Part shown: one piece after another, positions 4,017-22,984 of the stretch | Numbering within the stretch: the stretch's first letter is position 1 | Layout of the letters: the number at the start of each line of letters is the position of its first letter | Source of the DNA: Lactiplantibacillus plajomi | GTDB lineage: Bacteria; Bacillota; Bacilli; Lactobacillales; Lactobacillaceae | Reading direction: 5' to 3' | Length of the DNA: 37,545 bases | Assembly (NCBI RefSeq): GCF_005405405.1 | Contig: NZ_BJDZ01000026.1 | Location: forward strand, 6,969 to 44,513 | Notes under the pieces: generated by a model | What the model saw: only the letters and a program-made list of their open reading frames with translations | The model's database searches: none | Told to the model about the DNA's origin: nothing | Translations under genes and position numbers: made by a program

Positions 4017-4019
4017 AGA

Positions 4020-7136: not shown

Positions 7137-7492
7137 AAAAGAAAGGGGGAGTATTAATATTAGCGATATTAGGAATAACGCTAATATTAACTGCATGTAG
7201 CCAAGGAAAAACGACAGCGGACTATAAAGAAATGGTATCGCAGGTTTTGAAGATTGATAAAGCGGACACACAAAGGGTAGACCCCGGAGTACCATACGGA
7301 CACCCGAAAGCAACGGTTTACCATGATGAAGATAACCCAAATACTTATTACGTACGAGTTACTGATAGCGAAACTTATACAGGTTTTTACAAAAAAGTTG
7401 GTAATGGTAAGTGGAAACAATTAACCAACAATGACCAAGCCGCAAAGGTTATGCAGATGAAAAAGGTTTATGTACACAAAGGTACAAGCTAA
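7133..7492 (+). CDS. Cystatin-like-fold lipoprotein of the conjugation operon
   Basis: A 119-residue lipoprotein. The signal peptide ends in the lipobox LTAC, with the lipidated Cys at residue 22, and a domain of about 95 residues follows (VPYGHPKATVYHD, YYVRVTDSETYTGFYKKV). This resembles the small cystatin-like-fold lipoproteins seen in Gram-positive conjugation regions. It is predicted to be anchored on the outer face of the membrane and may protect or stabilise the channel; the role is inferred. The ATG overlaps the preceding stop. Confidence 0.7.
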   Translation: MKKKGGVLILAILGITLILTACSQGKTTADYKEMVSQVLKIDKADTQRVDPGVPYGHPKATVYHDEDNPNTYYVRVTDSETYTGFYKKVGNGKWKQLTNNDQAAKVMQMKKVYVHKGTS

Positions 7493-7504
7493 GGGGGCAA
7501 ACAC

Positions 7505-9337
7505 ATGAAAATAAAAAAGCTAGTCCCCATAGTTTTAATTGCATTAGGTTTCTTATTTATCGGAGGTACAGCAGTTCACGCGGATAACGGTTTAGATAGC
7601 GTTAAAAAGGCGGCTACGGAGTTAGCTAAACAAGCCGCAAAAAAGTATAGCGAAGAAAACTATTACACCGCACAGGACGTTAAACAAGGTGGTGTGACCT
7701 TAAATAGTGAACGTTATCCAATCGATCAGTATAAAGGGTATGCCGATTTAAACACCACAACGCACCCCGTTAAAGACATGATTAGAGGGGTAGGAAATAC
7801 CTTTTTCTATATCAACAAATTAATTTGGCAAGGGTTTGATAAAGTAATAAATCTATTATCAACAACGGACGTTTTAAACGGGAAAATCGACCAGATAAAT
7901 AGTGCGGCGGCAAGCATTTGGCAAACCTTAATTGATAACTTTTTAGCACTGATTTTGGTAGTCGTAGCAATTGCGGCAGGCTATACATTCGCTTTAAAAA
8001 ATGATTTGGTCGGTGGCTTTGCCATTATTGGTAAAACGGTATTAGTATTTGTGCTTTGTAGTGTGTTTTTAGTATTTGGCACAAGTCTAATGAAAGGTGT
8101 TAATACAATTAGTGGTGGACTACAGGGCAGCTTTTTAAAAGCGGCGTTAGTTTTTGACGGTAGTTCACAAAATATTGACTCTAACCAACCAGAAGCAGGC
8201 ACAACCGCGGTATTACGTAATACTTATTTTGATACGGCGGTCTATCGCCCCTACTTATTGATGAATTACGGCACAACTGATAAAAAGGCAATAACCAAGA
8301 ATAATAGCGATAGGATAGATAATCTTTTAAAACAGAAAAAAGATAGTGGTTCGGACAAGACTGTTAAAGATGAAAATAAAAAGCTAAACAATAAGTACAT
8401 GCAAGATGGAGACGAGGGTATTAACACCAAGCTTGCAGTAGGGCTAATCGCCCCCATGATTACCCTAGGTTTGGGCATTCCACTACTACTAATTTCATTG
8501 TTTAATTTGATAATTCAGATTGGTATTTTAGCCCTATTGTTGTTAGTGCCGTTGTCGTTTTTCGTGTCACTGTTACCGTGGTTTGGGAACAGTGGTTATA
8601 AGAACCTCGCAAGAATTATTGGACTATTCTTTTTCAAGGCATTTACAGCAATGTTTATCATGTTTTTACTGCTGATAATTCAAATCGTAGACAGCTTTAT
8701 TAGTCCTAATTCAGTTGGTGGCTATATCGCAAATTCGTCATTATTGATAATTGTAGCTTTTCTAATGATCTTAAAGCGTGATTGGATAATATCAACGGTT
8801 ACAGGCGGAAGAGTGGCAACCGTAGGCGCAGGAAGCAACAATATTAGACAAATGGCAGGCGCGGCAAGTCGAAAGATTGAACGGCAAACAAATCATAGAA
8901 ACGAGCCAGCACGACCAAATAATCCAAATAAAAGCGACCCGAAGTCTAATGAACCACAGGGGCGGCAAGAACAACAGCCATACGGCAAAAAGACGACCCC
9001 AAATGCACGAGAAGAATCAGGACGTAAGACAGAACCACAGCAAAAGCAAATGAAACCCAAAGCGGACGCACGGGCAGAATCAGAGCAAAAGACCAAGCCA
9101 AGCCGCGAAAAAGAACCACAAGCAAAAGAAAACCCAAGAAGCGACGAGCCACAAACCGCAGAAGAAAGAAAAAGTAGTTACGGAAATGAAGAGCCTAAAA
9201 GCAACGAGCAGAGCAACGCACGCGAGAACTCGGAACAACGAGCGGCACACGGAGCAAACGCAGAGAGTAAACAGGGGAATGCACGCGAAGAATCGGGGCG
9301 TAAGACTAGTAAGGAACGACCGTTAGGAGCTGATTAG
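7505..9337 (+). CDS. VirB6/TcpH-like polytopic channel protein with long hydrophilic tail
   Basis: A 610-residue protein. A signal peptide (about residues 1-27, ending VHAD) and an extracellular segment come first, then about seven membrane helices between residues 145 and 440, and finally a highly charged cytoplasmic tail (about 445-610) rich in Glu, Gln, Lys, Arg and Pro. The topology fits the VirB6/TcpH core protein of Gram-positive conjugation channels. The tail contains a degenerate repeat: NAREESGRKT, DARAESEQKT, NARENSEQRA, and NAREESGRKT again. TcpH-type tails are known to contact other transfer proteins, so this tail is a likely docking platform. AAGGGGG lies before ATG 7505. Confidence 0.78.
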   Translation: MKIKKLVPIVLIALGFLFIGGTAVHADNGLDSVKKAATELAKQAAKKYSEENYYTAQDVKQGGVTLNSERYPIDQYKGYADLNTTTHPVKDMIRGVGNTFFYINKLIWQGFDKVINLLSTTDVLNGKIDQINSAAASIWQTLIDNFLALILVVVAIAAGYTFALKNDLVGGFAIIGKTVLVFVLCSVFLVFGTSLMKGVNTISGGLQGSFLKAALVFDGSSQNIDSNQPEAGTTAVLRNTYFDTAVYRPYLLMNYGTTDKKAITKNNSDRIDNLLKQKKDSGSDKTVKDENKKLNNKYMQDGDEGINTKLAVGLIAPMITLGLGIPLLLISLFNLIIQIGILALLLLVPLSFFVSLLPWFGNSGYKNLARIIGLFFFKAFTAMFIMFLLLIIQIVDSFISPNSVGGYIANSSLLIIVAFLMILKRDWIISTVTGGRVATVGAGSNNIRQMAGAASRKIERQTNHRNEPARPNNPNKSDPKSNEPQGRQEQQPYGKKTTPNAREESGRKTEPQQKQMKPKADARAESEQKTKPSREKEPQAKENPRSDEPQTAEERKSSYGNEEPKSNEQSNARENSEQRAAHGANAESKQGNAREESGRKTSKERPLGAD

Positions 9338-10420
9338 GTGGAAAATGCGATAAAGAAAAAAGCAAAACACAGCTTAATATTTATCTTTTTACCCCTTATC
9401 CTAATTGCTTTTCTTTTGGTTGGCACGGCTTTAATGGTTTCGTTGAGTGGTGGCGGAATTGGAACGACAGAAACAACGTCAACAACCACCCTAGCAACGG
9501 GAAGCTCGAAAGGTTTATCAGCTAAAACGTTGCGCTTTAAAGATCAGATTAAAGCTGAAATGGATAAACAAAATGTACCAGCTTCATGGTTAGGCGTTTT
9601 GTTGGCGCATGTGGAAGTTGAAACACACGGAAACGCGGAGCAATACCCTGATATATTTCAAGCAAGCGAGAGTGTGAAAGGCGCAAACGTCACGAATGCT
9701 TTAACGACAGAGCAAAGTATTCATTACGGGGTACTAGCTTTTAAGAACCAATTGGCGAGCGTTAAGAGCATAACAGGACATGACCCAAGCGCAACAAATG
9801 AGGGTGACGTTAACATAACTTCGGTTTTGTATAACGCCCCCGCGTTTGGACCGTGGTTGAAGAAAAATCACGGCGGAAAATGGTCCGAGGCGGCGAATGA
9901 TGACTTTTACAAGAACGTATTACCGAGTTATGGTGCAGGTTCGGGCGATAGTAGTTACTGGAAGAAGATTTTACAGTATTACGACCCAAGCACAGGACAG
10001 AATACTAGCGGCGGTACAGTTACAGTAAGTGGCAAGTCACACAGTTACTATAATGCAGTGATTACCGAAGCTAAGAAGTACGAGGGTAACCCGTACGTGT
10101 GGGGCGGGTCAAACCCAACAACGGGCTTCGATTGTTCAGGGTTAGTACAATGGAGCTTCAAAAAAGCGGGAATAAGTTTACCGCGAACAAGTCAGCAACA
10201 ATGGCAAGAAGTGACGGAGATTTCAGAGAACCAAGCCCAAGCAGGAGACCTAGTATTTTTTGAGGGAACGGACAGCCAAGGCGGAATGACCCACGTTGGT
10301 ATTTATTTAGGAAATGGAAAAATGTTTGACGCACAAGACAACGGGGTCAAAGTTGATGACGTTGCCGCGTGGCAAAAGCTTTATAAGACACATTTCGGCA
10401 AACTCAAAGGGGTAAATTAA
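9338..10420 (+). CDS. Bifunctional peptidoglycan hydrolase of the transfer system (lysozyme-like plus NlpC/P60)
   Basis: A 360-residue hydrolase that should open the cell wall locally for the conjugation channel. A membrane anchor (about residues 13-35) is followed by a CwlT/phage-lysozyme-like muramidase domain (about 60-205) and an NlpC/P60 endopeptidase domain (about 230-355). In the latter the catalytic Cys266 lies in FDCSGLV and His319 in THVGIYLG. The start is GTG 9338, directly after the previous stop, with AGGAG 9 nt upstream. The domain order matches TcpG/TcpI/CwlT-like enzymes of conjugative elements. Confidence 0.88.
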   Translation: MENAIKKKAKHSLIFIFLPLILIAFLLVGTALMVSLSGGGIGTTETTSTTTLATGSSKGLSAKTLRFKDQIKAEMDKQNVPASWLGVLLAHVEVETHGNAEQYPDIFQASESVKGANVTNALTTEQSIHYGVLAFKNQLASVKSITGHDPSATNEGDVNITSVLYNAPAFGPWLKKNHGGKWSEAANDDFYKNVLPSYGAGSGDSSYWKKILQYYDPSTGQNTSGGTVTVSGKSHSYYNAVITEAKKYEGNPYVWGGSNPTTGFDCSGLVQWSFKKAGISLPRTSQQQWQEVTEISENQAQAGDLVFFEGTDSQGGMTHVGIYLGNGKMFDAQDNGVKVDDVAAWQKLYKTHFGKLKGVN

Positions 10421-10444
10421 GCAGGTAAAAAAAGGGTTGAGAAG

Positions 10445-11053
10445 ATGAAAAAGAACAGAATACCACTAATTTTAGTAGCTGTATTCATTGGCTTGTTATT
10501 AGTGTCAAACTGGCAAACAGGGCAAGCCTTAAAGCGTGAAAGAGGGAGAAATCAAGACATATCAAGACAGCTAAAAAAACAAGCGGTAACGATTGCGAAC
10601 GCAAAAGAAAGTTCAGTGACCGACAGCAAAAGCAGTAGCACCGCTGAAGAGTCGACTACTACTGATAACACAAAAGATATTAGTAGCAACCTCGCAGCAT
10701 TTCTACAGAATTTATATGTTTCAAAAAATAAGAACTTACAAGAGCGATATAAAAAGATTTCGCCGTTTCTAACAGGCGACGCAGTGAAGCAATTAAAGCC
10801 AAGCGGTACAAACAACAACGACAGCCAAGACGACGGCTACACACCAACAACGATTAGAGATATAGAAACTTTTAATAGTGGTGATAGCAAGAATCAAGAG
10901 GCGGTCACATTCTATAAAATGGAGAACAAGGTAGGTGATACTACAAAAGAAGTTAATATGGTAATGAGAACGAAGTTAGTCAAGAGCGGGCAAGAGTGGT
11001 TAATTAGCAAGATTGAATACAATGCAGGTTACGAACCAAACAAGAGTAATTAG
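10445..11053 (+). CDS. Membrane-anchored conjugation protein, possibly VirB8-like
   Basis: A 202-residue protein with one N-terminal membrane segment (about residues 6-22), a coiled stretch, a Ser/Thr-rich linker (residues 50-75) and an extracellular domain of about 120 residues (NLAAFLQNLYVS, MRTKLVKSGQEWLISKIEY). The ending, with strands around EWLISKIEY, is like NTF2-fold domains of VirB8/TcpC proteins, so this may be a second, shorter scaffold protein. It sits 24 nt after the hydrolase and 15 nt before the LPXTG protein. Family not certain. Confidence 0.62.
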   Translation: MKKNRIPLILVAVFIGLLLVSNWQTGQALKRERGRNQDISRQLKKQAVTIANAKESSVTDSKSSSTAEESTTTDNTKDISSNLAAFLQNLYVSKNKNLQERYKKISPFLTGDAVKQLKPSGTNNNDSQDDGYTPTTIRDIETFNSGDSKNQEAVTFYKMENKVGDTTKEVNMVMRTKLVKSGQEWLISKIEYNAGYEPNKSN

Positions 11054-11068
11054 AGGAGGATATAAAAA

Positions 11069-11989
11069 ATGAAAAAAACAGTTAGTGTAGCGTCAGCAAC
11101 TTTAGCAAGTCTTTTAATTTTTGGAGCGGCAGGAACAACGATTGCGAATGCCGATCAAGTGTCATCAGCCCAGACAACAACAGTATTAGACCCAACAAGT
11201 ACCACGACAGGCGATACAAGCACCACAGCAACAGACCCAACAAACACAAGCAATCAGGCGAGTGACACGGCTTCAAGCAGTGGTACAAGTTCAAGTGAAA
11301 ATAATGATACTGGAAGTAGTGCAATAGTACCAACAGACCCGACAACACCAACGGGCGACACAACGGGGAGTAGTAGTTCAAGTAGTAGCAGTACAAGCGA
11401 TAACGACGGTAGCGCAAACAGTACCACACCAGTAAACCCAACTAACCCAGCAGGCAATACAAGCGATACAACATCAGCGAATAGCAGTACAAGCAGTAGT
11501 GACACAAGCAGTACAGGAAGTAATACGGTAACCCCTGTAAACCCTATTAATACAACGGGTTCAAGCGATACAAGCAGTAAGGAAAGTGACACAATATCAG
11601 CCGGAAAATCGACACAGAAGAGCAGTACAAGTAAGACTAAAACTTCAAGTGAAGCAAGTTCAACAGTGGCGGAGAGTTCAAGTACAGTGAAACAAACAGC
11701 CGCCACAACACCAGTAGACCCAAACACCAGTAGCGATAATTCAAGTACGGCAAGTTCAAGCAAAACAGCGGCTACCACGCAGAATACTAAAGCAAGACAG
11801 CCACAGGCAGTCCAGGACAATAGCAAGAAGGCACAACAAACAGCCGCAAAAGCGACTTTGCCACAAACTGGCGAGGATAATACTAAAAATATGAGCATGA
11901 GCATAGCGGGAGCAATATTGATCGCGCTATCAGGGTTAATCGCAGGAGCGCAAAAAATTGGTGGATTCAAAAAATTATTTAATAGATAA
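11069..11989 (+). CDS. LPXTG-anchored Ser/Thr-rich surface protein
   Basis: A 306-residue surface protein. The signal peptide ends near AGTTIANA (about residue 28). A long Ser/Thr/Asp/Asn-rich region follows with recurring PVNPTNPAG-, PVNPINTTG- and DPTTPTGD-type units. The sorting signal LPQTGE (residues 264-269) precedes a hydrophobic segment and a basic tail. Sortase should link it to the cell wall. It is the last gene of the transfer operon, before a terminator, so a role in mating contact or aggregation is likely but inferred. AGGAGG lies 9 nt before the ATG. The opposite-strand reading frame across it is only a by-product of the Ser/Thr codons. Confidence 0.85.
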   Translation: MKKTVSVASATLASLLIFGAAGTTIANADQVSSAQTTTVLDPTSTTTGDTSTTATDPTNTSNQASDTASSSGTSSSENNDTGSSAIVPTDPTTPTGDTTGSSSSSSSSTSDNDGSANSTTPVNPTNPAGNTSDTTSANSSTSSSDTSSTGSNTVTPVNPINTTGSSDTSSKESDTISAGKSTQKSSTSKTKTSSEASSTVAESSSTVKQTAATTPVDPNTSSDNSSTASSSKTAATTQNTKARQPQAVQDNSKKAQQTAAKATLPQTGEDNTKNMSMSIAGAILIALSGLIAGAQKIGGFKKLFNR

Positions 11990-11996
11990 AAAGAGG

Positions 11997-12024
11997 AGTA
12001 GCCCATTGAGGGCTATTTTTTTTT
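11997..12024 (+). terminator. Rho-independent terminator of the conjugation operon
   Basis: TAGCCC (11999-12004), loop ATTGA, GGGCTA (12010-12015), then nine T. It ends the operon that starts at 2345. Confidence 0.85.
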
Positions 12025-12033
12025 TGCTATAAT
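12006..12033 (+). promoter_or_regulatory. Promoter of the DUF536 gene, overlapping the terminator
   Basis: Perfect TATAAT at 12028-12033 with a TG extension (12025-12026). The -35 candidate TTGAGG (12006-12011) sits in the loop and 3-prime arm of the preceding terminator, with a 16-nt spacer. Confidence 0.6.
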
Positions 12034-12065
12034 AAACCTGTACTGAAAAAGAGAGGTGTATTGTA

Positions 12066-12749
12066 TTGGCTAAAAGGTGGTTATCGGCACCAGAAATCGC
12101 GGAAGAACTGGGGATAAATCGACAACGCGTGTATCGCTATATTAGTAAGAACCGTATTGATTACGATAAAAGGCTAAAGAATGTTAATTACTACGGAGAA
12201 CCTACTATTAAGCGAATTAGAGAGCATTTTATTGCGATAACGCGTGTCAGTGACACAGGAGCAACAAATGCTAGTGATACAGGAAAAACAGGAAAAACGG
12301 CGAAAAAACCTGATATAGAGCCAAAAAATAGTGATACAAAAAGCCGTGTATCAATACAAAAAAACAATACAACGATACAGGATAGTGATACAGAAGAAAA
12401 TGGCAAAATCCTTACATATAAAGGGTTTAAGGGCGATAATACTGCAGTACAAGCAGTACTGGAAGACTACCGCCAACAATTCGAGGTGTTAAAGCAACAA
12501 TTAGCACAGAAAGATAAGCAACTCGAAACGAAAGACAAACAAATGAGCGAGAAAGACGAGCAATTAAGTAAGGTTTATAAATTGCTCGATCAACAACAAC
12601 AATTGGAGCTAGGAACACAAAAACGATTGAAATTATTGGAAAATGGAGCCGATTTAAGCACAGATAAAGCGGAGGAGGTAGAAAAGGTTAGGGATGAACC
12701 GAAAACGCCAGAAACGGCAAAAAAACGGCACTGGTGGCAAAGACGGTAA
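12066..12749 (+). CDS. DUF536-type plasmid protein with HTH and coiled coil
   Basis: A 227-residue protein. The N-terminal helix-turn-helix (LSAPEIAEELGINRQRVYRY, residues 6-25) is followed by a polar linker rich in Thr, Asp and Lys, a coiled coil (about 130-185, with repeated KDKQLE/KDEQLS heptads) and the end segment LLDQQQQLELGTQKR typical of DUF536. Such proteins accompany replication genes on lactic acid bacterial plasmids and probably act in replication control or partition. The start is TTG 12066, since GAGAGG lies 9 nt upstream and no ATG suits. It ends just before the Fst toxin locus. No RepB/RepA partner was found in the window. Confidence 0.75.
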   Translation: MAKRWLSAPEIAEELGINRQRVYRYISKNRIDYDKRLKNVNYYGEPTIKRIREHFIAITRVSDTGATNASDTGKTGKTAKKPDIEPKNSDTKSRVSIQKNNTTIQDSDTEENGKILTYKGFKGDNTAVQAVLEDYRQQFEVLKQQLAQKDKQLETKDKQMSEKDEQLSKVYKLLDQQQQLELGTQKRLKLLENGADLSTDKAEEVEKVRDEPKTPETAKKRHWWQRR

Positions 12750-12755
12750 ATAAGG

Positions 12756-12761
12756 TATAAT
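12756..12761 (+). promoter_or_regulatory. -10 box of the Fst toxin RNA
   Basis: TATAAT lies 46 nt before the toxin start. No good -35 box is seen. The leader then folds as CCT-AT-CCAA pairing with TTGG-G-AGG (12773-12798), which buries the ribosome binding site, as known for Fst-family toxin RNAs. Confidence 0.55.
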
Positions 12762-12806
12762 GAAAAAGTTGCCTATCCAATCTGCAACGGTTGGGAGGTG
12801 TAAAAA

Positions 12807-12893
12807 TTGTTTACTTCTTTCTTTGCCCCGCTTGCGGTTGCGCTGATAACAGCGTGGTTTACGGACTGGCTAAAACGGAAACGCCGCAAGTAA
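12807..12893 (+). CDS. Fst-family type I toxin
   Basis: A 28-residue peptide (MFTSFFAPLAVALITAW, then FTDWLKRKRRK): one membrane helix containing the APL motif and a basic tail, as in Fst/par toxins. TTG 12807 is the start, 7 nt after GGGAGG. These peptides insert in the host membrane when the antisense RNA is lost, which stabilises the plasmid. The locus has every par feature: a hidden ribosome binding site, a shared terminator, a convergent antisense promoter, and a 12-base direct repeat (TTCTTTCTTTGC at 12815-12826 and 12975-12986) through which the two RNAs can pair. It follows the DUF536 gene, consistent with a plasmid maintenance block. Confidence 0.85.
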   Translation: MFTSFFAPLAVALITAWFTDWLKRKRRK

Positions 12894-12920
12894 AATAAAA
12901 TAGGCGACATTTAGCCCACT

Positions 12921-12963
12921 AAAAAAGCCCTTAGCAGTCGTAACCTGCTAGGGGCTTTGGTGT
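12921..12963. terminator. Bidirectional terminator shared by toxin RNA and antisense RNA
   Basis: A 14-bp near-perfect stem (12924-12937 with 12945-12958, loop TCGTAAC), with A-rich sequence on the left giving a T-run on the minus strand. Confidence 0.8.
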
Positions 12964-12988
12964 AAAAACGTTTATTCTTTCTTTGCGA
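12921..12988 (-). ncRNA. Antisense RNA of the Fst locus (RNA II type)
   Basis: Transcribed from the promoter at 13022-12993 toward the shared terminator. It carries the complement of TTCTTTCTTTGC, matching the start of the toxin coding region, and so can pair there and at the terminator loop. About 65 nt long, as usual for such antisense RNAs. The transcription start is estimated. Confidence 0.72.
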
Positions 12989-12992
12989 GTTC

Positions 12993-13022
12993 ATTATAAC
13001 ATGAAACAAAAAAGAAGTGCAA
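12993..13022 (-). promoter_or_regulatory. Promoter of the Fst antisense RNA
   Basis: Minus-strand TTGCAC (13022-13017), 18-nt spacer, perfect TATAAT (12998-12993). Confidence 0.8.
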
Positions 13023-13399
13023 AGAAGTAAAATCAAGGTAAGTGGTATAGATTGTGTAATTTTGAAAAACGGGCCAATTGTGAACGGAAGTTAAAGGGTT
13101 GAGGCGAGTTTGTGATTAGGGGGCAATGCACAAGGGTGCGTGAAGCACTGGTCTAGTTGTTGGTTGCGATAAGAGTGATTATGTAAACTAGAAGTGGTAT
13201 ATTTAGCATTCCTTATGAATTATCTTATAAAAGATTATAAATTGCATTGAAAAAAATAATAAGGGGGTTTAGGTGTTGAGAGACGCGTTCTAAGCGTCTT
13301 TCAAGGTGTTAAGTGGATAGTTAACGGTTAGATTGCTTGATATGTCGGTATTTAGACTTGTTTTTTTCTTTTTTGTAGGTTATCCTTAAAGAGATAAAA
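13023..13399. other. Non-coding stretch between Fst locus and small gene
   Basis: No convincing gene. A short hairpin AGACGC-GTTCTAA-GCGTCT lies near 13281-13299, and the phrase AGTGGTATA occurs twice (near 13041 and 13193). It could hold regulatory or origin sequence; nothing decisive is seen. Confidence 0.3.
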
Positions 13400-13609
13400 T
13401 TGAATACATATAAGAAGGCATTAGCGTTTTTGGACAAACTAAAAACGCTAGCTCGAAATTCGACTGGTAATCGAATGACGAGAGCCTTAATTGATGAACA
13501 CCCATCAATTAAAACTATAGCTCTAGCGCTAGAAGTTATCTCTATTATACAAGCTAATCAGCTTGTCCGCAACATAAGCGGCAGTAATAGAATAACCGAA
13601 AAAGGCTAG
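13400..13609 (+). CDS. Small basic hypothetical protein
   Basis: A 69-residue protein starting at TTG 13400 behind a weak AAAGAGA. It is helical in character (ALAFLDKLKTLARNST, IKTIALALEVISIIQ) and ends in GSNRITEKG, which resembles the wing region of a winged helix, so a small DNA-binding protein is possible. It is followed 30 nt later by a strong terminator and then by the large structured RNA. Family not recognised, and the start is uncertain. Confidence 0.45.
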   Translation: MNTYKKALAFLDKLKTLARNSTGNRMTRALIDEHPSIKTIALALEVISIIQANQLVRNISGSNRITEKG

Positions 13610-13638
13610 AAGTTCAAGATTTAATGATGAAATTAGAC

Positions 13639-13676
13639 CCGTCAATTAAGGCAAATGCCTTGGTTGACGGTTTTTT
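13639..13676 (+). terminator. Rho-independent terminator
   Basis: CCGTCAA (13639-13645) pairs with TTGACGG (13664-13670), with an inner GGC/GCC stem, followed by six T. It separates the 69-residue gene from the structured RNA. Confidence 0.8.
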
Positions 13677-13687
13677 AATGCAAAAAA

Positions 13688-14250
13688 AGTCAATCTGCAG
13701 GGGGTAACTGTAATGAAAATTACTTAAAAAGCGGAAGTTACACCGCTCAACAAATGGTAAACGTGGGTTATTTGTTTCGTTATTGCAGGTAATCTAAGGT
13801 CAACGGGTAAATGTTGCAAGCCCGTACTGATAAACGATCAGAAGTCTAAACTACGTGCGAAAAAGAGTAGTGCGTAGCAAGATAAAAAGCAATGGAAGTG
13901 CATGCACTTATTATGGCTAAACTTCGCCGAAAGATACGACTGGAGTTGTCACTAACAGGAAGATTGACGTAACAAGTAGTGTTGTGCGTGAGTGAATCAA
14001 GAAAGTTAGCTAGTTACTCGTAAGCGGTCGATTGGACTGTAGTGAACCTTGATAGGGAGCTTAGCAAACAGAGAGCCGAAAGGTCAACACGCGGGGCAAG
14101 GTAGGAGCGTGGAAAAAGCTAAGTGGGTAACTGGAATGTTATCCAAGTCAATAACGTGCTAAAACGATCGGGCTATACTGCGACGTTGATAATCGTCACA
14201 AGTTTTGGTAAAAGACTTTCTATACATTCAGATAGGGAAAGTCTGCCTTC
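13688..14250 (+). ncRNA. Large highly structured RNA of the ROOL/GOLLD kind
   Basis: About 560 nt without a useful reading frame but full of consecutive perfect hairpins: GTAAT-GAAA-ATTAC (13710-13723, GNRA loop), GCGG/CCGC (13731-13746), AACAAAT/ATTTGTT (13749-13776), ACGGG/CCCGT (13803-13825), CTACG/CGTAG (about 13851-13877), AAGTGCATGCACTT, CC-GAAA-GG, GACG/CGTC, and AGACTTTC/GAAAGTCT (14213-14244). Its GC and purine character differ from the AT-rich flanks. ROOL (about 580 nt) and GOLLD (about 800 nt) are large ornate RNAs known from Lactobacillales plasmids and phages, and an abundant one is known from an L. salivarius megaplasmid. Size and plasmid context favour ROOL, but the exact class, ends and strand need a covariance search. 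No clear promoter was found. Confidence 0.65.
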
Positions 14251-14352
14251 CTCCTGAACTACCAGCTCAATTGATAGCTCATCAAACCATAAAACACAAG
14301 TGAGATTATATATTTTTTTGAATGATAAATACTAAAATGGTCTTTTAATAGC

Positions 14353-14412
14353 AACCCTAAAAATATAAAATTGGAAGTTCTGAAAGAACTGAAATTTTTT
14401 GTTTTTAGGGTT
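14353..14412. repeat. Long imperfect hairpin, possible terminator of the structured RNA
   Basis: Arms of 11 bp (14353-14363 with 14402-14412) enclose AAATT/AATTT and a perfect AGTTCT-GAA-AGAACT hairpin, followed by a few T. A further perfect GATGAAC/GTTCATC hairpin follows at 14416-14438. Confidence 0.55.
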
Positions 14413-14463
14413 TTAGATGAACGGTTTATCAGTTCATCAGAACTTGACTTTGAATTTTATTTT

Positions 14464-14492
14464 TTGATTTTTGGTTGATTTTATTTTATAAT
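14464..14492 (+). promoter_or_regulatory. Candidate promoter upstream of the transfer-origin-like repeats
   Basis: TTGATT (14464-14469), 17-nt spacer, TATAAT (14487-14492). It would drive the Replic_Relax and coupling-protein genes with a leader of about 350 nt that contains the large inverted repeat. The region is AT-rich, so chance matches are possible. Confidence 0.4.
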
Positions 14493-14525
14493 TTAATTGA
14501 ATTTTAGTGGATATAATTTTCAATA

Positions 14526-14665
14526 ACTCACGCTATATTTTCCTTTATTTCAAAGGATTCCGCCAGTCGCCCGCTCGAAACTGCACTCTCTCCACGTAGT
14601 TACGATAGTACAGTTTCGAGCGGGCGACTGGCTAGAGATGATATAAATAAAAAGTAAGCGTGAGT
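14526..14665. repeat. Large nested inverted repeat, candidate transfer origin
   Basis: Perfect 22-bp arms at 14562-14583 and 14611-14632 with a 27-nt loop, GC-rich inside an AT-rich region. An outer 9-bp pair, ACTCACGCT (14526-14534) and AGCGTGAGT (14657-14665), surrounds it. The position just upstream of the Replic_Relax and coupling-protein genes is where oriT usually lies. No established nick sequence is recognised. Confidence 0.6.
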
Positions 14666-14721
14666 AAGATAGAAAGAGATAAGAAAAGATAGTAAATAAG
14701 AATGAGATAAAGAGAGGTAGA

Positions 14722-14818
14722 GTTCAAGGTCAGAAGATTAAGTTCAAGAGAAGAGTCAAGATCAAGAGAAGGTTCAAGGTCAAGTTCAAGAGCAGGTCAA
14801 AAGAAAGTTCAAGAGCAG
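14722..14818 (+). repeat. GTTCAAG direct repeats in a polypurine tract
   Basis: GTTCAAG begins at 14722, 14742, 14772, 14784 and 14807, with GTCAAG-type variants at 14755 and 14796. Spacings cluster around one or two helical turns. Nearly the whole stretch 14660-14835 is purine on the plus strand. This looks like a binding array for an oriT or replication accessory protein. Confidence 0.6.
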
Positions 14819-14848
14819 ATAGATAAAAAATATAGGTAGGTGTTTAAG

Positions 14849-15505
14849 TTGATTATTGGGTTAACAGAAAAAAGACAGAGAGTGTTAGAAATAATAGATA
14901 GATTGGGAATTGCAAATATAGAGCAGATTGTTAGTTTGACAGGTTCAAAAAAAACAACAGCATATTATGCAGTACAGGAATTAAAAAAGAACGGTTTAGT
15001 TGTAGAGTTTAAGAATATAAGACAGGCGGTTTTTTTGATAACTAAAGCAGGTAGTGAATTTGTTGGAGAACTAAATTTTGGTTTTTCAAGAGATAATAAA
15101 GCACCGAATTTTGCAATTTTTCGGCATAGCATGTTAGTAAATGAGAGCATGATTTTTTACAAGGAGCATTTAAAAGAAGCCAGTTTTGAGACGGAACGGG
15201 AATTGTTAGTGAATGAAGTTAGTGACAGCGGACAGGATAGAAGAGAATTAAAGAATTTACCTGATTTTGTAATTGATACAGAAGAAACAAGGCAGGCAAT
15301 AGAAGTTGAATTGACAAGGAAGACCCCCGTACGGATAAAGAAGAAGTTGCTTAATTATAAAAAGTTATTGGAGGCAGGGGAGTACACGCATATTGTTTAT
15401 TTATATCAGTCTATGAATGTTCGCCGATTGGTCGCAAAATGTGCGGCAGAGGTGGGAATAGAGGTTACTTTTGGTAATCTTGATGAGATGTTGGGGGGGG
15501 AATGA
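14849..15505 (+). CDS. Replic_Relax-family protein (winged helix plus PD-(D/E)XK-like domain), candidate atypical relaxase component
   Basis: A protein of about 218 residues. The N-terminal winged helix (about residues 5-70) has ANIEQIVSLTGSKKTTAYYAV as its reading helices. The C-terminal half holds RHSMLVNE, typical of Replic_Relax proteins, and the series LPDFVID...IEVELTRK, which fits the D-ExE-K core of PD-(D/E)XK nucleases (D139, E152, E154, K158). TTG 14849 is preferred over GTG 14840, because AGGTAGGTG lies 6 nt before the TTG. It follows the oriT-like repeats and overlaps the coupling-protein gene (ATGA), so it probably recognises or processes the transfer origin. The nuclease reading is inference. 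Confidence 0.7.
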   Translation: MIIGLTEKRQRVLEIIDRLGIANIEQIVSLTGSKKTTAYYAVQELKKNGLVVEFKNIRQAVFLITKAGSEFVGELNFGFSRDNKAPNFAIFRHSMLVNESMIFYKEHLKEASFETERELLVNEVSDSGQDRRELKNLPDFVIDTEETRQAIEVELTRKTPVRIKKKLLNYKKLLEAGEYTHIVYLYQSMNVRRLVAKCAAEVGIEVTFGNLDEMLGGE

Positions 15506-17502
15506 AAATGTTTGATTATCCGGATAATGATAATCAGAAGGGTGGAAACGGGCAAAGTAGTACAGATCGTGAGATTGGAATCTTTGCAGGTGTTTTGATA
15601 GGTGGAATTGTACTGTTAATCGCGCTAGGACTGTTTTTACCCGCTTTAATCGTTAGTTTTTTGGTTGGAGGGTTTGCGGTCGCTTTAAAAAAAATGAAGT
15701 GGTTGCCATTAGTTAGTGGAATTAGTCTAATTGTATTTGTTTTACTGTTGATGAAGTTTAAAATCACGGCATTATTTCAGTTTTTGGGTATTTACAAAAA
15801 TATGTTCCCTGCAAAATTAATGCAGATAGTGGAGAACGTTTTTAACCATGGAAAAACGTTTGAAATCACGTGGCAAAGTTATGTACTGGAAATCGTGTTA
15901 GGTGTTGCAGTAGCTTTTATTGTTGCGTTAGTAATTAATAAATTACAGGCAAATTATTTCGTTAAAACTAAAGAAGATAGTCAAGGCAAGTTTTTGAAGT
16001 CTGATCAATTCCAAAAAATTTTCAAAAAGCGCGAAAGTATAACGAGTAAACAACAAGAAAAATGGAGAAATAGCGAGAAAAAGAACGATATTTATTTTGG
16101 AATTGACATAAAAGGCAATGCGGTAGAATTACCGCTAAAACAGTTGTTTACGCACGAATTAATACAAGGTACAACGGGTTCAGGTAAAACAGTAGCTATG
16201 TTGGCACAAGCAGAAGCATGTATGAAAGTTGGTTTACCTGTAATCTATGTGGAAGCCAAAGGTGACCCGCAAATTGAACATGATTTAGGAAAGTTGGCCA
16301 AGAAATACGGACGTAAATTTAAAGTTTTTTCGGACAACACAGAAACAACATACAACCCGATTAAAAATGGTGCGCCGTCGGGGGTTGAAGAAAGATTAAT
16401 GAGTGTTTTCGACTGGAGCGAGCCATTTTATAAAAATGTTAGTGATAACATGTTGCTAAAAGTAATTAAGTTTATGGACGCATATCAAATAAAGCGTGAT
16501 TTACCAACGTTACTAGAGTATCTAAACTTTGATAATATTTGGAAAACTCTAAAATCAGATAGTACGAAACGTGAGAAAATCGTTAAGCAAAAAGTTAAAC
16601 CAAAAGGCGGAAAAACAGGAGATACAGGGCTTGTAGGAACTGAAAAGAAAGAAGAAGCAAAATACGTTGATAAAAAAGTAGTTGTTTATGATCTAAGCGA
16701 AAAAGCGAGGGAGTACACAAAACTATTTTTTGAAAAAGAAAATTTTGATGATGAAGACTTTAAGGCGTTTAAAGAAAATGAAAGTAACGTCATGAAAAAT
16801 ATTTATGGTTTAAAGGTACAAATTGAGTTGCTAGTTATATCTGATTTAGGATATAAACTAAGTGAAACAGAAAATAGTATTGATATGACAAGCTTTTTAG
16901 ATACAACCGATGTAATTTTATTTAGTTTTAACAGCAATAATTATGGTTCGTTAATACCAAAATTAGGGCGGTTTGTGGTTAGTGATGTTGCAACTGCGGT
17001 TACACAAAAATTTAATGCAGGTAACGACTTTAAAGGCGCAATCGGCTTTTTTGACGAGTGGGGCAGTTACGCCAATGATAAGATTATCGACGTGCTCGCT
17101 AAAGCGCGCAGCGCAAAGTTTGGGGCGGTTCTAGGTGTTCAGTCTATGGAAGACTTGAACACCAATGGCCCGGGCTTAGATAAGCGAATCAGAGATAATG
17201 TAAATACATTTATGTTAGGGCGTTCAAATGACCCCGAGAGTGCAGATTATGTCGCAAATTTGGTCGGAACATATGAAGATCTCGACAAAACAATTATGAC
17301 CGAAGATAAAGGGGGCATATTTGCCCGCATTGATACCAAAGCGGCACGGGGAACGGTCAGAAGTGTAAATAAGTTTGTGGTTAAGCCTGATAGTATCAAG
17401 CGTTTAGAAGACCATTCATTTTATTTAATAACTAAAGGGGCAAAGAGCGAAGAAGAGTATGCACGTAAGGTTTATACGCGCAATACAATGCAAGGAATTT
17501 AA
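15502..17502 (+). CDS. VirD4/TraG-type coupling protein (T4CP)
   Basis: A 666-residue membrane ATPase that brings the DNA-protein complex to the secretion channel. Membrane segments lie near residues 25-62, 68-84 and 125-147. A cytoplasmic ATPase domain follows with Walker A GTTGSGKT (residues 223-230) and Walker B GFFDEWG (about residue 520). Lys-rich inserts near 350-400 are unusual in length. ATG 15502 overlaps the previous stop; ATG 15508 is an alternative with better spacing from the G-run. With the VirB4-like and channel proteins it completes a conjugation machine. Confidence 0.87.
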   Translation: MKMFDYPDNDNQKGGNGQSSTDREIGIFAGVLIGGIVLLIALGLFLPALIVSFLVGGFAVALKKMKWLPLVSGISLIVFVLLLMKFKITALFQFLGIYKNMFPAKLMQIVENVFNHGKTFEITWQSYVLEIVLGVAVAFIVALVINKLQANYFVKTKEDSQGKFLKSDQFQKIFKKRESITSKQQEKWRNSEKKNDIYFGIDIKGNAVELPLKQLFTHELIQGTTGSGKTVAMLAQAEACMKVGLPVIYVEAKGDPQIEHDLGKLAKKYGRKFKVFSDNTETTYNPIKNGAPSGVEERLMSVFDWSEPFYKNVSDNMLLKVIKFMDAYQIKRDLPTLLEYLNFDNIWKTLKSDSTKREKIVKQKVKPKGGKTGDTGLVGTEKKEEAKYVDKKVVVYDLSEKAREYTKLFFEKENFDDEDFKAFKENESNVMKNIYGLKVQIELLVISDLGYKLSETENSIDMTSFLDTTDVILFSFNSNNYGSLIPKLGRFVVSDVATAVTQKFNAGNDFKGAIGFFDEWGSYANDKIIDVLAKARSAKFGAVLGVQSMEDLNTNGPGLDKRIRDNVNTFMLGRSNDPESADYVANLVGTYEDLDKTIMTEDKGGIFARIDTKAARGTVRSVNKFVVKPDSIKRLEDHSFYLITKGAKSEEEYARKVYTRNTMQGI

Positions 17503-17668: not shown

Positions 17669-17839
17669 ATGAGTAGATTCTCAAAAGTATCAATTGGGGT
17701 TATCTATGTTATATGTACAATAGTGCCTGCTATAATTATGATATTTGAACGGGGCTTATTTTGGATTGGACTAGTAGCTCTAGGCTATTTTTGTTATATT
17801 GGCTGGTTTATTTTTATAAAATCGCATGATAATCTATAA
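17669..17839 (+). CDS. Small two-helix membrane protein, PlcC/GaaC-like
   Basis: A 56-residue protein with two hydrophobic helices (about residues 5-25 and 30-50: VIYVICTIVPAIIMI, WIGLVALGYFCYIGWFIFI). GGAGG precedes ATG 17669. Gassericin A-type clusters contain a companion of this size (GaaC) next to GaaB; here it has its own promoter and runs toward the last bacteriocin gene, overlapping its stop by 6 bp. A role in bacteriocin production or immunity is inferred from size, topology and place. Confidence 0.6.
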   Translation: MSRFSKVSIGVIYVICTIVPAIIMIFERGLFWIGLVALGYFCYIGWFIFIKSHDNL

Positions 17840-18355
17840 AAAAATTAAGCTATATATGGGTGTTATAATATTTATTACAAGAATTGTACTTGAAAATTCT
17901 ATATTGTTTTTTAAAGATATTTTTTGCTTTCTAAGATAGTTAAATATTAGAAAGCTGATAAAAGTTCCAAGTAGCAAGCTAAAAATATTTATTTGAAAGT
18001 TGGTTGCTGTTTTTTCGTATAAGTAGATATAAATGACATATAGTAAATTATATACAATATACGAAGACAGATAAATGTCATATACCTTTGTTTTAAAGCG
18101 AGGTAAGAATGTAAGGCTCAACCGTTTGATTTTATTAAATGCAAAGAATACTAGGTAAGTTCCCAAAGCTGATATAAAAACTACCAAACATAACAAGATT
18201 CCAAAGGTAGGTGCTGCTATACCAATAGGAATTCCCTTTAAAACACGGTTAGAATTAGGCAGGATTTTGAATGTTTTAAATATTCTTAGGATCGCTAATG
18301 TAAGTAATCCTCCCCATGCGAAAGTCCAATATAATATTGTATGTCTAAACTTCAT
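17834..18355 (-). CDS. Circular-bacteriocin membrane protein, PlcB/GaaB-like
   Basis: A 173-residue protein with about five membrane helices. GaaB of gassericin A is of the same size, and this is the last gene of the cluster. ATG 18355 lies 2 nt after the stop of the permease gene. In gassericin and plantaricyclin clusters the protein takes part in maturation or secretion, though its biochemical role is not settled. It ends in a convergent 6-bp overlap with the small gene on the other strand. Confidence 0.65.
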   Translation of the reverse strand: MKFRHTILYWTFAWGGLLTLAILRIFKTFKILPNSNRVLKGIPIGIAAPTFGILLCLVVFISALGTYLVFFAFNKIKRLSLTFLPRFKTKVYDIYLSSYIVYNLLYVIYIYLYEKTATNFQINIFSLLLGTFISFLIFNYLRKQKISLKNNIEFSSTILVINIITPIYSLIFL

Positions 18356-18357
18356 AT

Positions 18358-19002
18358 TTAGTCTTCTCCTCTAACTAAACTAATTACGTAGGCAATACTG
18401 TATGACAAAACAACAGTTATAATTAAAGTAAGAGCAACAAGAAATATTAATTCAATTTTAGAATCTAGTAAAATTAATTTTTTTATTTTAGACAAAACAC
18501 CAAAAAAACGTATACTTACAAAAGCTATCCCTAAAATCATTAACACACCAACAGTCAGTCCGTTTTGCTGAAAAGCATATAAAAAAGGAAGAATAAAGGA
18601 TATATAAATTATTGAAACCGTAAATAAGCAAATAGGAACAATCATGATACTTTCAATATTAATACCTTTGAAAAATAATGATATCACTAGAAAAAATAGT
18701 CCACTCAGTATAGCAGTTACAGCGCAGATAATGATAACAAATAGATACCTTGCAAGAACACTTATAGATTTTTTAATAGATAAAGTTGTTAAAAAATCTA
18801 TCCAGTTGTTTTTATTATCGGATAGAAAGAGTGATTGAATGCTATTAATCATTATCATTGATACCAATGTTGCTACTATCCAACTATCACTTTTTAGAAA
18901 AATTGAGGCTATAATTAAAGAAAAAGATACACCTAACAAATATGTCTTTTTGAACCACTTATCACACAGCTGATAATAATCTTTTAACATTAATCCAAGC
19001 AT
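18358..19002 (-). CDS. plcE: ABC-2 type permease of the circular bacteriocin system
   Basis: A 214-residue protein with six membrane helices, matching the length of GaaE (about 215). It pairs with the adjacent ATPase to form an exporter involved in secretion and added self-protection. ATG 19002 comes 2 nt after the ATPase stop. No ATP-binding motif is present, as expected for the membrane partner. Confidence 0.75.
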   Translation of the reverse strand: MLGLMLKDYYQLCDKWFKKTYLLGVSFSLIIASIFLKSDSWIVATLVSMIMINSIQSLFLSDNKNNWIDFLTTLSIKKSISVLARYLFVIIICAVTAILSGLFFLVISLFFKGINIESIMIVPICLFTVSIIYISFILPFLYAFQQNGLTVGVLMILGIAFVSIRFFGVLSKIKKLILLDSKIELIFLVALTLIITVVLSYSIAYVISLVRGED

Positions 19003-19004
19003 AT

Positions 19005-19688
19005 TTATTCACCTAACTTCGCCTTTTGTACTGTTTCTTCAAATAGTTTCTCAAGGTTTTCTGGCCCAAAGTTTTGCATACTTTTTTCCAAAATAATTTT
19101 TCCGTGATCTAGCAAATCAAAACGAGTACAGATTTCTACAACATCATTCAAATTATGGGTGGTAATTATTACTGAACAGTCATTTTGATCTACATATTTT
19201 TTGATTAGGCGCAACACTTTTCGGCGCATAAGAGGATCAAGGCCACTAGTTATTTCATCTAACAACAATAAATCTGGATGATGTGAAATAGAAATGCATA
19301 AGTTTAGTTGCATTTTCATTCCTTTGGAAAAATTAGATATCGGTGTTTTAGTAGGTAATTGAAGTGCTTTAATATAAGGCCAAAAAGCTTGGGTATCCCA
19401 GTTTATTCCAATGTTTTGAAATACGTGTTCCAACTGAAGAATATTTAGTTCTTCAGGAAATGGAATGCTGTCAAAGCAAAATCCCAATTCCTTAAAATCT
19501 TTTTTAATAGTCCCAAAATCTATCTTATTGATTCCTCCAATTGATTTTAATAGTGTAGTTTTTCCGGCACCGTTTTCACCAATTAAACCAATGATTTCTT
19601 TTTCTTTTGCTTGAAAATTTATGTCGCTCAATATAAAATTATCGTATTTTTTCTTGACGTGACTCATACTCACCTTAGTCATACACAT
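19005..19688 (-). CDS. plcT: ABC transporter ATPase of the circular bacteriocin system
   Basis: A 227-residue ATPase, the same length as GaaT. Walker A is GENGAGKT (about residues 36-44), the signature is degenerate (NFSKGMKMQ, about 117-125), Walker B is LLLLDEITSGLD (about 137-148) and the switch His lies in TTHN. AAGGAG lies 8-9 nt before ATG 19688. With the following permease it exports or gives resistance to the bacteriocin. Confidence 0.85.
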   Translation of the reverse strand: MCMTKVSMSHVKKKYDNFILSDINFQAKEKEIIGLIGENGAGKTTLLKSIGGINKIDFGTIKKDFKELGFCFDSIPFPEELNILQLEHVFQNIGINWDTQAFWPYIKALQLPTKTPISNFSKGMKMQLNLCISISHHPDLLLLDEITSGLDPLMRRKVLRLIKKYVDQNDCSVIITTHNLNDVVEICTRFDLLDHGKIILEKSMQNFGPENLEKLFEETVQKAKLGE

Positions 19689-19707
19689 TATTCTCGCTCC
19701 TTGGTAG

Positions 19708-19872
19708 TTAATCTGTATGCCGTTTAATTAGTTGATATACAAAAGACAATATTACTGTAATTATTGCACATACATAAGTTATAGTACTGAGGCCCTGGAA
19801 GAAAAATGCAATTATTGTCGCTAACAATACAATAATTGTAATGACACGTACTAACATATCTAAATTTTTCAT
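19708..19872 (-). CDS. plcI: Circular bacteriocin immunity protein, PlcI/GaaI-like
   Basis: A 54-residue cationic membrane protein (MKNLDMLVRVITIIVLL, then a second helix and the tail LIKRHTD), close in size to GaaI (53). ATG 19872 is chosen because TAGGAG lies 7 nt upstream; the longer frame from 19893 lacks a binding site. Such proteins protect the producer by acting in its own membrane. It starts 2 nt after the preceding stop. Confidence 0.75.
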   Translation of the reverse strand: MKNLDMLVRVITIIVLLATIIAFFFQGLSTITYVCAIITVILSFVYQLIKRHTD

Positions 19873-19874
19873 AG

Positions 19875-20360
19875 TTAATCTCCTAACAACCATAAGGCTA
19901 ATTCTGGAGTAACAAAAACTTCAATTATCGCTGCAAGGAACAAAAGACAGTAGGCTCTTATTATATTAATTTTCATGTGATTAACATGTGTTACAGCATA
20001 TACTAACCATACATATGAAGTTATTTCAATAATACCATGTGGTAAGAGTAAAACGATACTTTGAAAGATTGGTAATTGACCGCATATCAGACCAACGTTA
20101 AAGCCATTAACGCAAAAGAATATAACACTCACTATATTTCCTAAAAAAAGAGTAGAGCTTAATACTAAAAATGCTATTGTATTTCTAAAGATAATTTCAG
20201 TAAACCAGTTTAAATGAATTACTTTAAACGAATCCAATGAATGTTGAGAGCTTGCAGTTGCGAAATATTTGCTAAATAAGACACCTAAAATTAGAAAAAT
20301 TATAAATACTATCAATAAAGCAGGTATATTACTCCGTGATTTATTCACAAAGATGGTCAC
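19875..20360 (-). CDS. plcD: DUF95/SpoIIM-family bacteriocin maturation protein, PlcD/GaaD-like
   Basis: A 161-residue membrane protein with the hallmarks of the SpoIIM/DUF95 family found in every circular bacteriocin cluster: an N-terminal helix, FLGN, the pattern VNGFNVG, and PHGIIE in the middle (about residues 75-115). It is thought to act in cyclisation or secretion together with the ABC proteins. The start at GTG 20360 is uncertain, with a weak binding site; GTG 20348 is an alternative. A terminator stands between it and the precursor gene. Confidence 0.8.
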   Translation of the reverse strand: MTIFVNKSRSNIPALLIVFIIFLILGVLFSKYFATASSQHSLDSFKVIHLNWFTEIIFRNTIAFLVLSSTLFLGNIVSVIFFCVNGFNVGLICGQLPIFQSIVLLLPHGIIEITSYVWLVYAVTHVNHMKINIIRAYCLLFLAAIIEVFVTPELALWLLGD

Positions 20361-20374
20361 TTCACTTTACAAAT

Positions 20375-20424
20375 AAATAAAAAAGATTGAGACTAGCGAA
20401 TTGGTCATGCTAGACCCAATCTCT
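20375..20424 (-). terminator. Intra-operon terminator between bacteriocin precursor and maturation genes
   Basis: On the minus strand AGATTGGGTCTAGC pairs with GCTAGTCTCAATCT, followed by six T. Partial read-through would give much precursor RNA and less of the downstream messages. Confidence 0.75.
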
Positions 20425-20439
20425 AATGTATATAATAAA

Positions 20440-20715
20440 TTAAGCTGCGGTACCCCCGAGAGCCCCAGCTGCTGCAACTGCCCATCCTGGCAATGTAACG
20501 CCTAAGATAACAGCTGCCACGGTACCCAAAGATGCTCCAGAAGATAATAAATCTAAAGCCTTTTGTGTAAGCTTTGTTGTCAAATGCACACCAAATTGTT
20601 TTGCAATCCATACAATATTAACTGTGGCAAATAATAAAATAAAAAGAGAGATGATCATTAAAATAGTAACCTCAAATTTGTTCAATCCTAACCTGCTACG
20701 ATATGCTGAAAGCAT
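20440..20715 (-). CDS. plcA: Circular bacteriocin precursor, plantaricyclin/gassericin A type
   Basis: A 91-residue precursor: a 33-residue leader (MLSAYRSRLGLNKFEV, ending TVN) and a 58-residue core from Ile34 to Ala91 (IVWIAKQFGVHLTTKL at the start, AAAGALGGTAA at the end). Joining Ile34 to Ala91 gives a head-to-tail ring of subgroup II, like gassericin A, acidocin B and plantaricyclin A. The core contains the conserved LGVTLPGWA and SSGASLGT. AAAGGAGG lies 6 nt before ATG 20715. The start of IS21 copy 2 is only 29 bp upstream, so the native promoter is missing; the fitting one is at 2210-2181. Confidence 0.93.
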   Translation of the reverse strand: MLSAYRSRLGLNKFEVTILMIISLFILLFATVNIVWIAKQFGVHLTTKLTQKALDLLSSGASLGTVAAVILGVTLPGWAVAAAGALGGTAA

Positions 20716-20743: not shown

Positions 20744-20847
20744 TGTAAAAGGCACCCGTAAAATGTAGGAAAACGGCAGGTTAGAACTGTTGGTTTTCCT
20801 ACATTTTTTGTATCATGAATCACATCAGAGTGTAGGAGGAATTTGAT

Positions 20848-22071: not shown

Positions 22072-22080
22072 GAGGCTACC

Positions 22081-22818: not shown

Positions 22819-22984
22819 CTGCCGAAAACCTACATTTCTTTCTGCCGAAAACCTACATTTTTAAACTGCCCTTGACATATTTTAAGCGGTCGCTGGTTAA
22901 TTTGGAGTAACATAGTATCTAATCTATACGTTCAACACCAAACAATCAAACACCACGCCACAACACAGCACATCGTATAGACAC

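Follow-up and report, generated by a model that had tools for sequence, protein, structure and literature searches.

A structured RNA-like element beside the transfer genes of a Lactiplantibacillus plajomi plasmid appears to be a distant relative of GEBRO RNA

GEBRO RNA owes its name to its place between the single-strand and double-strand origins of a plasmid. Its original description is said to be that of Weinberg et al. in NAR in 2017; Rfam types it as an sRNA gene, we found no paper on this RNA in the open-licence literature searched, and it looks like an orphan RNA. We confirmed it full-length in the plasmids pUA140 (Streptococcus mutans) and pSt0 (Streptococcus thermophilus). For S. mutans plasmids, passages of one report describe a gene called Rep, a double-strand origin (DSO) located in repeats and a single-strand origin (SSO) upstream, the two origins flanking a GC-rich, highly structured region (PMC3547324). 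In pUA140, this region is GEBRO.

ROOL and GOLLD are presented in a section of PMC12286853 as RNAs of phages and prophages, often near tRNA islands, and the abundant lncRNA of the L. salivarius megaplasmid is counted there as ROOL. Deletion of that lncRNA lowered the ratio of megaplasmid to chromosome, and in the same extract the authors state that not all megaplasmids carry it (PMC5643018). The L. plantarum plasmid pB21AG01, as portrayed in excerpts of its description, has no rep gene and about 7.6 copies, with a replication mechanism that its authors call yet undetermined; these excerpts report no clear repeats upstream of orf2 (PMC7423119).

We analysed a window of 37,545 nt from L. plajomi (contig NZ_BJDZ01000026.1, positions 6,969 to 44,513); coordinates below count from its first base. 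A sequence-only reading had singled out about 560 nt at 13688-14250 as gene-free, rich in hairpins (at least nine perfect ones, some of them GNRA-capped) and unlike its flanks in composition, and had taken it for a large ROOL- or GOLLD-type RNA on a conjugative module. The stretch is indeed gene-free: no open reading frame of at least 60 aa overlaps 13610-14839, and the longest start-to-stop frame overlapping 13680-14330 has 44 aa. Instead of nine perfect hairpins we counted five in 13688-14250, requiring a stem of 5 or more and a loop of 3-8; this is near chance, as order-1 Markov sequences contained 2.3±1.5 and 25 of 300 reached five. A GNRA loop capped one of the five (at 13710). The GC content in 200-base windows was 0.395-0.47 from 13700 to 14299, compared with 0.225-0.315 in the downstream flank (14200 to 14599) and 0.30-0.375 in the upstream flank (13200 to 13699). 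Farther upstream (12500-13199) it was again 0.37-0.445, and the proposed compositional contrast is therefore sharp on the downstream side only. Folding of the single sequence gave a z-score of −1.17 for the + strand (2 of 20 shuffles equally good) and of −0.04 for the − strand (8 of 20); being only mildly better than shuffles, single-sequence folding alone is no proof of structure.

The element and its parts are as follows.

13690-14260 (candidate ends), + strand: structured RNA element of about 530-570 nt, recognized by covariation; alignable core 13726-14255
14011-14027, + strand: motif TAGTTACTCGTAAGCGG, identical in 11 of 11 rows of alignment A4
14030-14145, + strand: 3′ domain, homologous to positions 231-338 of the GEBRO model (RF02988; cmscan 33.2 bits, E 4.4e-7)
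14213-14244, + strand: 3′-terminal hairpin with AGGGAAAG in its 3′ arm (A4 helix 22, all lettered cells paired)

Alignment A4 comprised 11 rows, nine of them distinct, and yielded a consensus of 108 pairs. Among the distinct rows, standard pairs filled 97.6% of the cells in the consensus structure and 34 of the 108 pairs had changed on both sides, a number reached by none of 500 shuffles; compensatory changes in homologues are thus present. Sliding the pairing partner by 1-3 columns left 33-37% paired cells and 2-5 pairs changed on both sides. A further measure, counting additional pair types, was matched or exceeded by 32 of 500 shuffles. Since most rows are close copies, the diversity of A4 stems mainly from the Ca. 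Gallilactobacillus copy and its near-identical counterpart (L007/L040), the Ligilactobacillus aviarius copy (L008) and the L. plantarum group. An alifold consensus of six rows had a z-score of −18.6 on the + strand versus −9.5 on the − strand, against 30 column shuffles. A 5′-truncated homologue (G390, locus L059), found later by covariance model and hence outside the building of the fold, kept 48 of 57 pairs and broke nine, and in 20 of the 48 kept pairs both partners differ from those of the window; its version of TAGTTACTCGTAAGCGG differs by one substitution and one inserted base. A GAAA tetraloop sits on a covarying stem at 14075-14084 (A4 columns 364-373). A closing helix between the 5′ and 3′ ends (CAGGGGG/CCUCCUG), possible by eye in the window, was dropped, being absent from L008 and partial in L007.

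Comparison among homologues, unlike the single sequence, proves the structure; a genuine RNA-like element with a conserved fold lies at 13690-14260 (+). The sequence-only reading was right in its impression of a large structured element, for reasons invisible in the single sequence. Among 67 pairs predicted on both strands there were 14 G-U cells and three A-C cells, and in flanking pairs 40 and 18, respectively. The excess of G-U over A-C cells points to the + strand as the structured one, with the proviso that an RNA and a displaced + strand of DNA would look alike in this test.

The latter case deserves attention. Part of the S. mutans plasmid report places the nick on the + strand (PMC3547324). 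A nick on that strand in the present plasmids would give a displaced strand of the structured sense, so the strand test could not separate RNA from DNA. The element might act as folded single-stranded DNA, as an extended single-strand origin or a transfer-origin structure on the displaced strand. It lies between hairpins of the single-stranded DNA type and origin-like repeats, it co-occurs with the hairpins, and no good promoter site was found upstream of it (nor, in a relaxed search, a good site shared among copies). Against this stand its length and complexity, the frequent G-U pairs, the typing of GEBRO as an sRNA gene, and the conserved GAAA loop and purine-rich unpaired motifs, features typical of RNA. 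We regard folded DNA as possible and unlikely.

At curated cut-offs, no Rfam family matched 13690-14260, and the RNA-like element is without a name in the sources searched (Rfam and the literature). Matches to Plasmid_RNAIII (13452-13566, − strand) and to microRNAs were below gathering scores, lay on simple hairpins and were discarded as chance. The GEBRO match in the 3′ domain covers a helix that encloses a GAAA hairpin and a GGGC-loop hairpin, followed by a hairpin with a loop around CUGRAAUG. The window's 33.2 bits are far below the GEBRO gathering score of 284.7, as are the scores of the homologues in L007 (38.6 bits), L008 (30.1) and L040 (42.5), which match the same positions; in four of four copies scanned by E-value the match started at model position 229-233 and ended at 338. 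Of nine loci scanned, including two with mere fragments, none reached the gathering score.

We built a covariance model of the 3′ region (R1) from the present family only, without GEBRO. Searched at E up to 10 against 15 sources (131,680 bases), R1 found two family copies and four streptococcal GEBRO plasmids, pUA140, pLM7, pSt0 and pST64987, in all four with the match on the 3′ domain of GEBRO (42-46 bits, E values from 5e-8 to 3e-7). As pUA140/pLM7 and pSt0/pST64987 are near-identical within pairs at this place, these matches count as two independent cases. Models of the middle (R2) and the 5′ part (R3) matched none of the four plasmids at E up to 10, and the GEBRO 5′ domain (model 1-228) had no counterpart. 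Thus the 3′ domain match (model 229-338) is reciprocal, and the strand is the same, as is the slot, with a hairpin region upstream and, downstream, inverted repeats that are followed by a relaxase- or initiator-like gene and a TraD-like gene. In contrast, GEBRO measures 350 nt, the present RNA about 550 nt, and the GEBRO hosts found here are small streptococcal plasmids, whereas the present RNA resides on lactobacillar ones. One shared domain, a different remainder and scores short of the defining cut-off mark a relative of GEBRO rather than a member; that the RNA is a distant GEBRO relative with a shared 3′ domain and a 5′ remainder of its own is well supported by these model comparisons.

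Membership in ROOL or GOLLD, as proposed from sequence, did not survive the search with the Rfam models: neither matched anywhere in the window at its curated cut-off, and the 14 Rfam matches obtained in 13000-15000 with E values of up to 10 included neither. The RNA resembles these families in length, in its lactobacillar plasmid setting and as a large ornate RNA of Lactobacillales mobile elements. GOLLD, moreover, is described in part of PMC12286853 as more conserved in its 3′ part and less so in its 5′ part, which is also the case here. However, the window holds no tRNA, neither a phage nor a tRNA-island setting was found, and the match obtained was to GEBRO. Among 50,697 phage records there was no match; in viral contigs one loose pattern gave 13 matches, all judged unrelated, and a second gave none. 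We consider membership in either family refuted, with hardly any residual probability.

The neighbourhood of the element is composed as follows.

2709-12749, + strand: Tcp-type transfer genes (Pfam: TcpC, TcpE, AAA_10 ATPase, NlpC/P60, DUF536)
13299-14317, + strand: unit of hairpin array and RNA, 94% identical in the MOBQ plasmids pL1277-5 and pL125-4 (hits H10 and H11)
13415-13590, + strand: array of strong hairpins, single-strand-origin-like by resemblance (inverted repeats I16 and I17)
13422-13450, + strand: TAGCGT hairpin within the array
13487-13512, + strand: AATTGATG hairpin within the array
13639-13676, + strand: terminator-like hairpin with a 14-pair stem and a T run (one found, shuffle mean 1.0)
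14353-14412, no strand: 60-bp segment with an AT-rich 20-nt inverted repeat, inverted in pB21AG01
14464-14492, + strand: TTGATT-17-TATAAT, a promoter-like site after the RNA and ahead of the relaxase gene, which it may serve
14526-14665, no strand: nested inverted repeats, origin-like, with outer arms at 14526-14552 and 14639-14665
14562-14590 and 14604-14632, no strand: inner arms of the nested repeats around TCCACGTAGTTAC (repeats I1 and I2)
14840-15505, + strand: Replic_Relax protein (PF13814), putative MOBC-type relaxase or initiator (E 1.2e-5, 26 bits, cut-off 25.3)
15502-17502, + strand: HerA/TraD-like coupling protein (TraG-D_C, HerA_C and others)

The sequence-only reading was right to place the element on a conjugative module. 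Among the Tcp-type genes upstream, we take the AAA_10 ATPase to be VirB4-like; four of ten transfer-region proteins scanned had no Pfam family. The sequence-only reading had also placed the RNA between a maintenance block and transfer-origin-like repeats. Strong nested inverted repeats do lie downstream, but the upstream side is the end of the Tcp-type operon followed by the hairpin array and not a plain maintenance block. The inner repeat scored 23, compared with at most 12 in 100 mononucleotide shuffles, and in L. hordei (L018) and L. gastricus (L048) its stem is rewritten while the loop CCACGT is kept. The 60-bp segment at 14353-14412 behaves in this comparison as if invertible.

In pB21AG01 (L001) the Replic_Relax gene is orf2, and we found the nested repeats upstream of it. 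The Replic_Relax protein of the window has relatives of 97-99% identity in three L. plantarum plasmids that PLSDB types as MOBC. The NCBIfam MobC subfamily matched it weakly (20.1 of 200 bits), and a PD...EVELTRK motif was seen by eye; a single-sequence structure model (pLDDT 38) was unusable. MOBC relaxases are characterized, in an excerpt of PMC12857230, as restriction-endonuclease-like, with TraX of pAD1 as the studied case. The order of elements in pUA140 and pSt0 matches that of the window. The coupling proteins of the window and pUA140 share 25% identity (E 2e-25), the proteins in the relaxase position, compared for this one pair, match marginally (E 0.006), and Pfam Replic_Relax did not match the relaxase-like proteins of pUA140 and pSt0.

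Lying upstream of the relaxase gene on the same strand, the RNA might serve the relaxase mRNA as its leader or attenuator. The promoter-like site between the two argues against this, though its presence is chance-expected (one site found, 4.7 in shuffles). It is kept in the close relatives L001 and L010, with a 9-of-12 site in L018, and is absent from L037 within the 272 nt examined. Moreover, the RNA adjoins other genes elsewhere, and a leader seems very unlikely. A precursor of a replication primer resembling RNAII of ColE1, which is near 550 nt in size, would agree with the length of the RNA and its direction towards the origin-like repeats. However, the fold persists up to the 3′ end of the RNA, some 270 nt short of the repeats, and the unit occurs in plasmids in which the match lacks those repeats, making a primer improbable.

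The MOBQ-typed plasmids pL1277-5 and pL125-4 possess another set of transfer genes, and their match excludes both the inverted repeats and the MOBC relaxase. The L. aviarius copy lies between genes that we take to encode ParA and an UmuC-like protein, and the L. acidipiscis and truncated G390 copies likewise have other gene contexts. Hairpin arrays are alike upstream of the RNA in L008 and L040, and a hairpin at the terminator-like position is also present in L007, L008 and L040. From the occurrence of the unit on unrelated backbones we conclude that the RNA is associated more tightly with the hairpins than with the relaxase. TAGCGT is the SSO hexamer. It is lost in L003 and absent from L008 and L040, and as it is not conserved among relatives we rejected it as proof of an SSO; the hairpins bear that label for where they lie and how they are shaped. 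In GEBRO plasmids, too, a hairpin array is followed by the RNA, inverted repeats and a relaxase- or initiator-like gene, and in the window the array and repeats are origin-like by resemblance.

The variety of plasmid backbones, with different replicons and relaxases, would also suit a trans-acting plasmid RNA unconnected with replication, serving for example in host take-over or defence evasion or as an RNA cage. The slot common to GEBRO plasmids and the position of several copies near partition or resolvase genes speak against it, and we give this explanation a low but appreciable chance.

Drawing on the conserved fold, the strand preference, the domain and order shared with GEBRO and the observed co-occurrence with the hairpin array on different backbones, our preferred reading, with a probability of roughly 0.55, is that of a plasmid-borne non-coding RNA of ~550 nt with a GEBRO-like 3′ domain, lying in the GEBRO slot and having a plasmid-maintenance role at the origin; position and analogy suggest this role. 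The slot would consist of a single-strand-origin-like array, the RNA, nick- or origin-like repeats, a relaxase- or initiator-like gene (MOBC-type here) and a coupling protein. The RNA would be transcribed on its own, fold and, probably together with a plasmid or host protein, serve maintenance; its most likely target would be replication or the conversion of single to double strands, and in this way copy number. As the RNA occurs in plasmids without the relaxase in the match, the hairpin array or a host factor is the more likely partner. With an SSO upstream and a DSO downstream, as in the GEBRO plasmids, the RNA gene would turn double-stranded last, and its transcription could report a completed round of replication. 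The effect of the L. salivarius lncRNA on copy number provides an analogy for a maintenance role, and pB21AG01, which carries the RNA and is described as lacking a rep gene, also speaks for it. Points against this reading are the lack of a good promoter upstream, a GEBRO match confined to one domain and far below the gathering score, the missing Replic_Relax match in the streptococcal relaxase-like proteins, the poor conservation of TAGCGT, the other gene contexts, the RepA-like protein of the window's own plasmid (see below) and the rarity of the RNA.

A broader proposal, which we put forward as speculative and doubtful, is that MOBC-type plasmids without Rep form a distinct replicon class in which a large origin-adjacent RNA is a working part. 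The RNA and hairpin array would direct or time second-strand synthesis or initiation, and the slot would be filled by several unrelated-looking ornate RNAs, namely GEBRO, the present RNA and an RNA of Liquorilactobacillus plasmids described below.

The present RNA is rare. Close copies (95.8-99.4% identity) were found in five L. plantarum plasmid records; six of 72,556 records matched, the sixth being a Pediococcus plasmid with a 98-nt fragment. PLSDB classes the lactobacillar plasmids with the five full copies as mobilizable or conjugative. A DNA search matched six of 397 family genomes. Apart from the genome of the window itself, two held close copies, two held diverged homologues (in the part matched, 67% identity for L007 and 70% for L008) and one held a CRISPR spacer. 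Model R1 matched six of 397 family genomes and one of 395 order genomes, the window's own, and R2 the same six family genomes, in searches whose filters lose weak matches. Of 148 order genomes, the Rfam GEBRO model matched that of the window and no other. When GTDB genome contigs were scanned for an exact pattern, five stretches came up, from L. aviarius (L008), L. acidipiscis (L006), Ca. Gallilactobacillus (L007), Liquorilactobacillus capillatus (L005) and a contig binned as Ca. Ureaplasma (L040). The RNA of this last contig is near-identical to the Gallilactobacillus copy, and the bin label may be wrong. All named copies are on plasmids or on contigs that are not demonstrably chromosomal.

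The CRISPR spacer belongs to an array in L009 (G169:C24), presumably of type I-E-like, with 25 exact 28-nt repeats from about locus position 1470. This 33-nt spacer matches the RNA gene at 33 of 33 positions in L003, L005 (which shares its contig with L037), L006 and L010; L001 and the window (at 13913) match it at 32 of 33. RNA-bearing plasmids have apparently been targeted by CRISPR.

These results extend the GEBRO core domain to food-grade lactobacilli and identify its conserved part, and they tie the RNA to relaxase/coupling-protein modules and to plasmids with unexplained replication. Plasmid pB21AG01 in L. plantarum offers a tractable system for studying structured RNAs on the origin side.

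The window itself contains two near-identical insertion sequence copies, presumably IS21-like, at 6-2139 and 20744-22877 (identical at 1970 of 1971 coding bases). Between them lies the greater part of a pB21AG01-like plasmid, from which about 1.0 kb and 0.8 kb of the pB21AG01 sequence are missing, and a 6-bp direct repeat (CTTGTG) accompanies the pair. The window resembles a cointegrate formed by this pB21AG01-like plasmid and a plasmid bearing genes that we assume to be RepA-like, ParA-like and MobA-like; NCBIfam did not match the RepA-like protein. Because such a protein is present, the RNA module need not be the replicon in this cointegrate. An antitoxin RNA of the RatA type scored above its gathering score at 34395-34487 (− strand), and RatA-type matches also lie close to the RNA in L003 and L006. 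Genes resembling a circular-bacteriocin cluster lie at 17834-20611 (− strand), like those for the cyclic bacteriocin of pB21AG01 and for plantaricyclin A in L010.

A second, sequence-distinct structured RNA was found in seven records of Liquorilactobacillus plasmids, at about 5150-5660 in L018 and about 4000-4520 in L045, L046 and L047. An alignment of four rows shows covariation in 31 of 168 predicted pairs (alifold z-score −11), and Rfam gave no match at E up to 1. In L018 it occupies the same kind of slot, upstream of a conserved inverted repeat and a Replic_Relax gene; it differs from the present RNA in giving nothing below E 1 with R1, R2 or R3, and we dropped direct homology of the two on this result. 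Unannotated stretches of 1.1-2.1 kb also lie just upstream of Replic_Relax-type genes on two Bacillaceae plasmids and one L. gastricus plasmid (L050 1379-3488, L052 1789-3515 and L048 2390-3482), and in L049 the corresponding region holds annotated hypothetical genes. The L. gastricus stretch matches itself only, and that of B. licheniformis matched 14 Bacillus plasmid records, itself included.
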